From Acidobacteriota bacterium (GTDB taxonomy: Bacteria; Acidobacteriota; Terriglobia; UBA7540): a stretch of DNA of 64,000 nt. The translations under genes and the position numbers were made by a program. The notes below the pieces were generated by a model, which ran no database searches, was not told where the DNA came from, and saw only the letters and a program-made list of their open reading frames with translations. Shown one piece after another: positions 23,933-31,110 of this stretch (position 1 is its first letter; every line of letters starts with the position of its first letter). Where the stretch lies: contig CADDZE010000009.1 in NCBI GenBank assembly GCA_902812465.1, positions 1-64,000 on the forward strand, written 5' to 3'.

Positions 23933-24085
23933 AGGCGCCCGCCAGCGCCTCCAGCTGAAGGCTGACCCTGAGTATCCAAACCACGGGCCGCGTCATCTCA
24001 TTAAAACGGCGGGTTTGGCCACCGAGTGGATGACCCAACGGCGAGGCTGGCTCAGCCAAACAGACATCGTAGGGTGGAGGATTTC

Positions 24086-24946
24086 ATGAAGCGCACGGCA
24101 GGTGTTCTCCTCTTGTTGGCGGGAATCGCTTTGGTATTCATCCCGCGAATGCAAGCTTTTCCGCTCCGGGTGACTCTGGCCCCATGGCCTGGCCAGGCCA
24201 ACGACCAGACCATCAAGTCAGATATCGAGGCGAAGCTCTTCCAGGACTCGGTCCTCAAGCAGCGTGACATCCGCGTGGAAGTGCAGAACGGCGTGGTAAC
24301 GCTGACGGGAACGGTCAACACGGAACTCGAGAGGAGCGGCGCCGGCCGGATCGCCCAGCAGGAAGCGGGCGTGACCCAGGTGGTGAATAACCTGACGGTG
24401 GGAGCGTCCTCGAGTCCGCTGGCGGCGCCAACAAGCAGCGTGACGATTCCGGCTGGAACGGTGGTGACCGTGCGGATGATTGATTCCATCGACTCCTCCC
24501 GAAACCATCCCGGCGAAGAGTTCCACGCCAGCCTGGACTCTCCCGTCGTGGTGGGGGACCGCGTTATTTTTCCCAAAGGGTCGGAGGCCACAATTCGCCT
24601 GGTGAATGCCGGCCAGGCAGGGACTGTCCGCGGAAGTTCATCGCTTCAGCTTCAGTTAGTCTCCGTAACCGCTAACGGGAAGGTCTATCCGGTGGAAAGC
24701 GCGGACTACGAACTGCACGGTGGTTCGAAGGGCAAGCGCACCGCTGAAGCCACCGGAGCTGGCGCAATCGTGGGAGGCCTGATCGGAGCCATTGCCGGAG
24801 GCCGCAAGGGCGCGGCGATCGGGGCAGGCGCGGGAGCCGGTACTGGAGCGGCGGCGTCGGCCATCACCAAGGGTCAAGTGGTGAGAGTGCCTTCCGAGAC
24901 AAAGCTCGACTTCCGGCTGCGCTCGGCGGTCAGCGTGGGGTCCTAG
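24086..24946 (+). CDS. BON-domain secreted protein with glycine-rich C-terminal segment
   Basis: 286 residues. ATG 24086 follows GGAGG; an upstream extension to 24026 lacks this signal. It has a signal peptide (KRTAGVLLLLAGIALVFIPR), a BON domain (residues 35-105; IRVEVQNGVVTLTGTVNTEL, VTQVVNNLTV) and a beta-rich region. A glycine/alanine zipper (GAGAIVGGLIGAIAGGRKGA) could enter a membrane. BON domains bind phospholipid or outer-membrane partners; the exact job is unknown. A hairpin follows at 24954. Confidence 0.82.
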   Translation: MKRTAGVLLLLAGIALVFIPRMQAFPLRVTLAPWPGQANDQTIKSDIEAKLFQDSVLKQRDIRVEVQNGVVTLTGTVNTELERSGAGRIAQQEAGVTQVVNNLTVGASSSPLAAPTSSVTIPAGTVVTVRMIDSIDSSRNHPGEEFHASLDSPVVVGDRVIFPKGSEATIRLVNAGQAGTVRGSSSLQLQLVSVTANGKVYPVESADYELHGGSKGKRTAEATGAGAIVGGLIGAIAGGRKGAAIGAGAGAGTGAAASAITKGQVVRVPSETKLDFRLRSAVSVGS

Positions 24947-28409: not shown

Positions 28410-29591
28410 TCAGCGCTCCACCACCATGGCGATCCCTTGTCCGCCGCCGATGCAGAGCGCCGCGAGGCCCAGATGGGCGTTGCGCCGCCGCATCTCGTAG
28501 AGCAGCGTGACGAGGATGCGAGCGCCGCTCGCGCCAATCGGATGGCCCAGGGCGATCGCACCCCCATTGACATTGGTGATGGCTGGATCGAGTCCCAGTT
28601 CGCGCATGACGGCCAGCGACTGGGCGGCGAAGGCTTCGTTCAGCTCGACCAACTCGATCTCTTGAAGCCGCAGCCCGGCCTTCGCCAGCACCCTTTGGAT
28701 CGCGGGCACTGGCCCCATACCCATCAGGCGCGGGTCCACACCCGCCACGGCATAGGCGCGGATCGCCGCCAGCGGCTCGATCCCGCGCGCTTCGGCCTGC
28801 CCTTCGGACATCACCACCAGCGCGGCGGCACCGTCATTGATGCCGCTGGCATTGCCCGCCGTCACCGTGCCGTCCTTCTTGAACGCCGGCTTGAGCCGGG
28901 CCAGCAGCTCGTAGGTGGTCCCGAAACGCGGGAATTCATCGCGCGCGAACACCGCTGGCTCCCCCTTCGTAGCTGGCAGGGGAACCGGCACGATCTCCTC
29001 GCCGAAGCGGCAGGCCTCCATAGCGGCTTGCGCGCGGCGCTGGCTTTCCAGGGCGAAATTGTCCTGATCCTCGCGGCTGATGCCGTAACGCTCGACAATA
29101 TTCTCGGCCGTGACGCCCATGTGGACGCCGTCGCTGAGCGCACAGGTGAGGCCGTCGGACAGCATCGCGTCCAGGATCTCAGCGTTCCCCAGCCGGTGAC
29201 CCCACCGCGCGCTCTTCAGCAGGAACGGCGCCTGGCTCATCGATTCGGTTCCTCCGGCAACGACCACCTCGGCGTCGCCGCAGGCGATGGCCTGCGCGGC
29301 CAGCGCAACCGCCTTCAGACCCGAGCCACATACCTGGTTCACCGTATAAGCGGGAACTGAACTGGGTATGCCCGCACGCACGGCCGCTTGCCGCGCCGGG
29401 TTCTGGCCCAAGCCTGCTTGGAGCACATTACCGAAAATGACTTCCTCAATCTGGTCTTTGGCCAGGCCCGCGCGGCGTACCGCCTCCTCCATCACATGCC
29501 GGGCGAGTTCGACAGCCGACACTTCCCGCAGCGAGCCGCCGAAGCTGCCGATGGCGGTACGCGTTCCACTGACGATGACCGCCCTTTCCAT
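28410..29591 (-). CDS. Acetyl-CoA C-acetyltransferase (thiolase)
   Basis: Condenses two acetyl-CoA to acetoacetyl-CoA or the reverse. 393 residues, the normal length. The nucleophilic cysteine is C88 in [12 protein letters not shown]. Other family motifs are [30 protein letters not shown] and the second catalytic cysteine in ALCIGGGQG. It lies 17 bases after the probable selenoprotein gene and downstream of the CoA-transferase genes, which fits acetoacetate activation and cleavage. Confidence 0.95.
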
Positions 29592-29608
29592 AGCCGTCGC
29601 TCCTGTCG

Positions 29609-30199
29609 CTATAGCGAAGCCGCCGCGGGCGCTCGCGGACCTTCAGTCAGAGCACAGAACGCGCCCTCGGAAAATCCTTGCGCCCCGATCCCCAGCGCGT
29701 GGTTGAAGCGCGCGCGGTAGTTCTCCCAGGCTATCGCGGCCGTCAGCTCGACTAACTCTGCCTCATCGAAGTCTTCGCGCAGCCGCGCCACCAGTTCGTC
29801 CGGAACGTCAACGGGGGTGCGCGTCATACGTTCAGAGTATTCGAGAACTCGCTTTTCCAGGTCCGAGAATGCCTGGCTCTCCTGGTACGACGCCAGGTCG
29901 CGCAGCTGCTGGTCCGTGATTCCCAGGCCTCTGCCGACGGCAGAGCCGATGTCCATTCAAAACGGGCAGCCCACTAGCGTCGCAGCCTTCAAGCCCGCCA
30001 GGGCCTTCAGGCGCGGGTCGATGCGGCGCGAGCGGTCCAGCGCGAATTCATAGGCCACCAATCCCCGCATGATCCACGGGTGATGCGCACTGACGGCTAG
30101 CGGCTCAGCCACTTTGCCAAGGCGCTTGCGGCTGAAACGGTACGCCAGCCAGCTCAGCCAACCTCCCCGGTCTTCGGGAACACCTGCGATGCGTGCCAC
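29609..30199 (-). CDS. Carboxymuconolactone-decarboxylase/AhpD-like family protein, probable selenoprotein (UGA at codon 81)
   Basis: 196-residue protein read from GTG 30199, which has AAGGAGA placed well upstream. The frame is interrupted once, by TGA at 29957-29959, exactly at the second cysteine position of the family's CxxC redox motif: LVGCPF-[UGA][12 protein letters not shown], where cysteine homologues read CPFC-(I/M)DIGSA. The frame continues intact to 29609, with the conserved [18 protein letters not shown]. The UGA is followed at SECIS distance by a hairpin, so C78-P-F-U81 is the likely active site of a thiol/selenol redox protein. CxxU members of the AhpD/CMD superfamily are known. 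A caller without recoding would report a 115-residue fragment from ATG 29956. It sits between DUF1684 and the thiolase gene. Confidence 0.85.
29926..29947 (-). promoter_or_regulatory. Bacterial SECIS-like hairpin
   Basis: Directly after the UGA come 11 bases, then the perfect 7-bp stem CTCTGCC / GGCAGAG closing the loop GTC. Two more G-C pairs extend the base across one bulged G. The loop begins 19 bases after UGA and has G first, as in the Escherichia coli fdhF SECIS (loop GGUC at the same distance). The hairpin is also coding sequence. Confidence 0.75.
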
Positions 30200-30222
30200 C
30201 TCGTTCTCCTTGCCTTGAAGCT

Positions 30223-31110
30223 CTAATGACCATAGCGCAATTCCCCTGCCTCGATACGAACGGAGAGCACATTCTGTTGCGGCGGCAGCGGGCACGTGGC
30301 GTAGGGAGTGAACGCACAGGGGGGATTGTAGGCCTTGTTGAAATCCAGGATCACTTCGTCTTGACCCGGCCGGGGCATCTCCGCCGATAAAAAGCGGCCC
30401 GTGGGGTAGGTCTCGCGGCCAGCCGTGAGGTCCTTGAAAATAATGAACAGCCGACCGTCCTCGACGAGAGGATCCAGCCGGCAAGCATGGCCCTGGAGAC
30501 TGAATTCCAGGTACCCGGGCGAGAGTTCTTCCTCAATCTCGCCCAGGATATTCGGCACTGGGATCTTCTGGGGCGGCGAGTAGGGCACCCACTTGGCTTT
30601 GACGCGGTAGTGCTCATCCACCGGAAAATAGCGGAGCCCCGCGAACTGCTGGCGCTGCGGCGCCAGCTTGTCGCGTAGCCGAAGGGCGTAGCGGTTGCCC
30701 CGCTGGATGACGAAAAGGCTGAGAGGGCCCCAGGTCAGCACGTCTGGCTCGCCTGAACTGTCAGGCTTCAGCACGGCATCGGTCACCGGTTGTCCGTTCA
30801 GCATGACGCCGACGCCCGGCGCCGCATGGAAGGCGGTGGTGCCCTGGTGAAATTCGAAAGTTCCCAGGCGCGCTGGAGCACTGGCCGGCAAAAGAATGCG
30901 GTTCCCCTTGTCAGAACCGGCGGTATTTGAGCCCTCCTTCAGCCAGAAGAGACCCGCCACCGTCAGCCAGCCGTCGTCGGCCGTCAGAGCAGCAAGCCTG
31001 GCGGCGTGCCACTGGTTGATCTCGGCTAGGTAAGCCGATTCGGCAGTTGGCCTGGCAGGTTGACTGCCCACAAGTCCAGATGCGCTTAGCGCGATAACGG
31101 CGGCCAGCAT
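30223..31110 (-). CDS. DUF1684 secreted protein
   Basis: 295 residues, with an N-terminal hydrophobic signal (MLAAVIALSASGLVGS). It matches the DUF1684 pattern: INQWHAARLAALTADDGWLT, VAGLFWLKEGSNTAGSD, RLRDKLAPQRQQFAG, FPVDEHYRVKAKWVPY and the end FNKAYNPPCAFTPYATCPLP. No biochemical function is established that I know of. It ends 23 bases before the GTG of the probable selenoprotein gene, so the two are likely co-transcribed. Confidence 0.85.
   Translation of the reverse strand: MLAAVIALSASGLVGSQPARPTAESAYLAEINQWHAARLAALTADDGWLTVAGLFWLKEGSNTAGSDKGNRILLPASAPARLGTFEFHQGTTAFHAAPGVGVMLNGQPVTDAVLKPDSSGEPDVLTWGPLSLFVIQRGNRYALRLRDKLAPQRQQFAGLRYFPVDEHYRVKAKWVPYSPPQKIPVPNILGEIEEELSPGYLEFSLQGHACRLDPLVEDGRLFIIFKDLTAGRETYPTGRFLSAEMPRPGQDEVILDFNKAYNPPCAFTPYATCPLPPQQNVLSVRIEAGELRYGH

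Follow-up and report, generated by a model that had tools for sequence, protein, structure and literature searches.

The reverse strand at positions 29609-30199 of the window (the whole 64,000-nucleotide stretch of acidobacterial DNA that was analysed) very probably, at about 96% in our estimation, codes for a selenoprotein belonging to the CMD/AhpD superfamily, in which an in-frame UGA would be read as selenocysteine (Sec). This reading had been put forward in a preliminary description, and it is now supported by the Sec machinery of the host, by UGA/Cys exchange among homologues, by a covarying hairpin and by the recurrence of the arrangement in many genomes. The gene is a well-supported further example among known CxxU selenoproteins and not a new phenomenon, since such members of the superfamily, whose existence the preliminary description had noted, have been described since 2005: they were reported in that year from the Sargasso Sea (PMC1088965), AhpD-like 1 and 2 selenoproteins followed from the GOS in 2008 (PMC2398784), and CxxU selenoproteins of the superfamily are listed in a 2026 review table (PMC13188914). 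Four selenoproteins had already been counted in Acidobacteria in 2006 (PMC1794560).

The gene shares with the CMD-like and AhpD-like CxxU selenoproteins the CMD/AhpD family assignment (PF02627 or COG2128), the CxxU motif and a bacterial SECIS hairpin after the UGA. It differs from them in its acidobacterial origin, the earlier reports being mainly marine metagenomic, and in the subfamily sequence features of its acidobacterial lineage, with a GFSEGAFC-type tail in close relatives. Knowledge of selenocysteine insertion itself is unchanged by this gene. The Sec-containing CMD subfamily is widespread in the host's acidobacterial class, plain ORF callers would cut its genes in two at the UGA, and its well-supported SECIS hairpins, which have natural counterparts in Cys forms, are material for testing what selenium contributes.

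The gene and its in-frame UGA

Read-through of a single TGA, the sole internal stop of the frame, gives one protein of 196 residues, and this TGA takes the place of the second Cys of a CPFC motif. Direct reading of the DNA bore out the coordinates, the frame and the position of the TGA given in the preliminary description, as well as its GTG start with a good ribosome-binding site; in homologues, too, the start (MARI..) falls at this GTG in the alignment. The features are the following, all on the reverse strand:

29609-30199, reverse strand: coding sequence of the predicted CMD/AhpD-fold selenoprotein, 196 residues, GTG start, TAG stop, UGA at codon 81 predicted to be Sec
30206-30211, reverse strand: ribosome-binding site AAGGAG, 6 nt upstream of the GTG, read directly from the sequence
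30199-30197, reverse strand: GTG start codon
29957-29968, reverse strand: redox motif Cys78-Pro-Phe-Sec81 (TGC CCG TTT TGA), both positions Cys or UGA in 43/43 alignment rows
29957-29959, reverse strand: in-frame TGA, codon 81, predicted Sec; UGA at the equivalent codon in 43 loci, a sense codon in 17
29929-29945, reverse strand: bacterial SECIS-type hairpin CTCTGCC-GTC-GGCAGAG with a 7-bp stem, supported by conservation and covariation in homologues
29611-29609, reverse strand: TAG stop codon

Homologues were collected by a phylum search (396 genomes), a class search (399 genomes) and from genome contigs, and 60 loci were read codon by codon (L010 and L076 are apparently one contig, which makes the distinct loci one fewer). 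The codon for residue 81 is UGA in 43 of the 60 and TGC or TGT in the other 17, so that the Cys/UGA exchange suggested as a check in the preliminary description is seen among the aligned sequences; the UGA stands opposite the catalytic Cys of the homologues and the frame is kept on either side. A UGA form from the same family shows 65% identity, one from a deltaproteobacterial MAG 49%, and others are more distant still; the genera are many, at least two phyla are represented, and the sequence on each side of the UGA is conserved. A TGA is one base away from TGC or TGT, and a sequencing error or a recent nonsense mutation, in a Cys gene or a pseudogene, could have produced it here; this is extremely improbable, given the equivalent UGA in these 43 loci, their conserved halves and a hairpin linked to the codon. 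As a general explanation, sequencing error is refuted by the presence of UGA at the equivalent codon in dozens of independent genomes.

When the Sec label is mapped on a 58-row tree, 5 changes suffice, where shuffled labels require 14.8; Sec and Cys interchange occasionally. The closest Cys forms (L095 and L096, of genomes G707 and G549; about 44% identity) lie inside the Sec clade and lack the hairpin, while selA is kept; a replacement of Sec by Cys is probable in these two genomes. In a distant Cys/TxxC branch, two UGA forms (L033 and L035, of G023 and G210) carry a differing hairpin with loop GGC at +21, which suggests that Sec was separately gained or retained there.

Hairpin and selenocysteine machinery

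The hairpin begins 11 bases after the UGA and carries the loop GTC at 29938-29936. The hairpin, at 29945-29929, agrees with the preliminary description in stem length, loop and distance from the UGA, and its loop G at +19 lies within the 16-37 nt from the UGA at which bacterial SECIS elements have a G early in the loop. A single hairpin is weak evidence when taken alone: an equally good stem with a loop G arises in 15% of synonymous recodings of this one sequence (P about 0.15), and the argument therefore rests on the conservation of the hairpin. At the fixed register, 41/43 UGA loci have a stem of 5 bp or more vs 1/17 sense-codon loci (Fisher 1.7e-11); synonymous shuffles of the 43 UGA loci give on average 4.5 loci with such a stem, and at most 11. 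Among 38 aligned UGA sequences, 92.1% of the cells are paired (80.0% in shuffles), 30 cells are changed on both sides (6.9 in shuffles, with nothing comparable in slid controls) and such changes affect 5 of the 7 stem pairs. The covariation score is 0.358 (0.127 in shuffles, at most 0.123 in slid controls) and lies above every one of the 500 shuffles and every slid control. Moreover, RNAalifold recovered 6 of the 7 stem pairs unprompted. We take this conservation across homologues as the decisive comparative evidence. An Rfam scan of 29000-31000 gave chance matches only and did not find a SECIS family. A scan of the whole window for UGA codons flanked by coding-like sequence and accompanied by a stem of 7 bp or more gave, besides this gene, one candidate, at 24220 on the reverse strand; it was rejected as antisense to the ORF 24026-24946.

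These data also bear on the possibility that the UGA is a real stop and that the parts before and after it are two genes coupled in translation, with restart at UGAAUG. This sequence is present here, and a plain ORF caller does give two ORFs, 29957-30484 and 29609-29956. An ATG follows the UGA in only 4 of the 43 UGA loci, however, the others having ATC, ATT, CAG, CTG, CTC, ACG or GTG; the UGA falls inside both the CMD domain and the redox motif, other homologues have Cys at this codon, and coupled genes would not account for the covarying hairpin. We consider coupled genes very improbable, and the reading of the UGA as Sec is retained.

All the genes that the preliminary description proposed to search for were found above their family cut-offs in the host assembly, which is 98.6% complete: selA (576 bits vs 268), selB (370 vs 242), selD (383 vs 125) and selC, the tRNA-Sec (73 vs 47), with anticodon TCA according to ARAGORN. 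UGA is also the ordinary stop of many neighbouring genes in the window (thiolase, both CoA-transferase genes, tyrA, aroF and trpB), and a global change of the code is thus not at work. Across genomes, selA exceeds its cut-off in 37 of 40 with a UGA form and in 7 of 17 where the homologue analysed carries a sense codon (Fisher 8e-5); in the three exceptions, G723 and G104 (660-750 contigs) and G654 (65% complete), its absence probably reflects missing sequence.

The host selD (G000:C42:3121-4047) has an in-frame TGA of its own (KAAGU) early in the matched stretch, close to the N-terminus, with a strong hairpin behind it. This is a second, independent sign of UGA recoding in this genome, and SelD itself is probably a selenoprotein.

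Insertion of Sec at residue 81 would proceed as follows: Sec-tRNA(Sec), charged by SelA, would be delivered by SelB, which would bind the hairpin that closely follows the UGA and lead the ribosome to insert Sec. This predicted route through SelB and the hairpin is supported by comparative genomics.

Fold, family and putative activity

The AhpD/CMD fold of the predicted product is secure, because three lines converge on it: the read-through protein matches PF02627, the Pfam CMD family (35 bits, gathering cut-off 23); its AlphaFold2 model is all-helical with a mean pLDDT of 95.4; and Foldseek assigns a probability of 1.00 to Pseudomonas PA0269/AhpD, Bmp8, D. radiodurans AhpD and other CMD-fold proteins. 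The nearest NCBIfam model is NF053654 (GroundWater_YciW, 'YciW-related (seleno)protein'), which all 43 alignment members match at E <= 0.001 and which covers residues 24-175 here. With 126.3 bits against a cut-off of 310, the gene product is, by its sequence score, best placed in a sister subfamily of NF053654 and not as an equivalog. The peroxidase-related model TIGR01926 reaches 24.3 bits, below its cut-off of 81.8, and a plasmid search returned only relatives with less than 60% identity, for example E. coli YnjA.

The AhpD proteins of Pseudomonas (PA0269), D. radiodurans and M. tuberculosis share with our protein the all-helical CMD fold and a pair of redox residues. The match to PA0269 has a TM-score of 0.89 on the target, whereas M. 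tuberculosis AhpD is a poor fold match. The acidobacterial protein differs from AhpD in having Sec for the second Cys and Gly85, not His, four residues later, and so departs from the canonical CxxCxxxH pattern. Since the relay His is replaced by Gly85, the classical AhpD peroxidase relay is not conserved. Of the 43 rows, 17 have Gly, 13 Asn and 12 His at this position, and a C-terminal Cys, C182, is common to close relatives, as read in their sequences; with such variation and this extra Cys, the reaction catalysed may be one other than alkyl hydroperoxide reduction.

In the model, Sec81 would lie in a helix that starts at residue 79 and pair with Cys78 as a CxxU redox couple. By analogy with the AhpD/CMD family, its selenolate would attack a substrate in oxidised form, with a hydroperoxide or a disulfide the likeliest candidates, an Se-S bond would then form with Cys78, and a cellular thiol system would reduce that bond. 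The same analogy leads us to favour, with some reserve, peroxide or disulfide reduction as the activity, that is, a selenol-thiol peroxidase or disulfide oxidoreductase.

The same selenoprotein might instead carry out reductive dehalogenation or the reduction of another electrophile. Bmp8, which has CxxC and not CxxU and debrominates by these cysteines, ranks with the best matches both by profile and by fold (PDB 6ohi and 6ohj; TM 0.78-0.82, 175 aligned columns), the human deiodinases, whose chemistry is comparable, are selenoenzymes, and the relay His is absent here. However, the identity of Bmp8 to our protein across the aligned fold is only 15%, plain AhpD-like proteins match the fold equally well, and dehalogenation genes were not recognised among the neighbours tested. 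We therefore hold this chemistry to be unlikely. It is also rather doubtful, though conceivable, that the gene represents a separate subfamily of CMD-fold selenoenzymes, acidobacterial for the most part and defined by the lack of the relay His, by the extra C-terminal Cys and by a selenium chemistry other than that on alkyl hydroperoxides, such as reductive dehalogenation or the reduction of lipid- or CoA-linked electrophiles.

Gene neighbourhood

A thiolase gene lies directly downstream in the window, and DUF1684, CoA-transferase B, carbonic anhydrase and CoA-transferase A genes lie upstream. The preliminary description had remarked on this ketone-body/acetoacetyl-CoA setting, and a role of the protein in that cluster could be imagined, since the gene stands between the thiolase and CoA-transferase genes and CoA-transferase genes are near it also in two members of the same family, f1: G423, where CoA-transferases, tyrA, aroF and pgsA are kept around the gene, and G497, where CoA-transferases and pgsA are. 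The meaning given to this context did not find support, because the synteny is confined to that one family. In these relatives the thiolase is not adjacent, and a protein of about 105 residues, unrelated to it, stands there instead, separating the gene from pgsA. By tblastn of the other approximately 30 loci (some on short contigs), linkage to CoA-transferase, pgsA or thiolase genes was not found outside f1, save for a thiolase in G395, in the reversed order. A function in ketone-body metabolism is thus quite improbable. As the linkage to CoA-transferase and pgsA genes is restricted to one family and the adjacent thiolase is not shared by relatives, we read it as inherited gene order and not as a functional signature; the neighbours give no pointer to the substrate of the selenoprotein.

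The protein of about 105 residues is conserved and lies between the selenoprotein gene and pgsA in G497, G423 and L010/L104 (L103 8409-8738, L106 6446-6760, L010 943-1251). The copy from G497 (L103) had no Pfam match, and the protein was not found in the window. A gene for a DUF4345-like membrane protein, seen beside the selenoprotein gene in two distant lineages only, lies directly upstream of it in G599 and in a deltaproteobacterial MAG (L011 5576-5992; L105 7347-7760).
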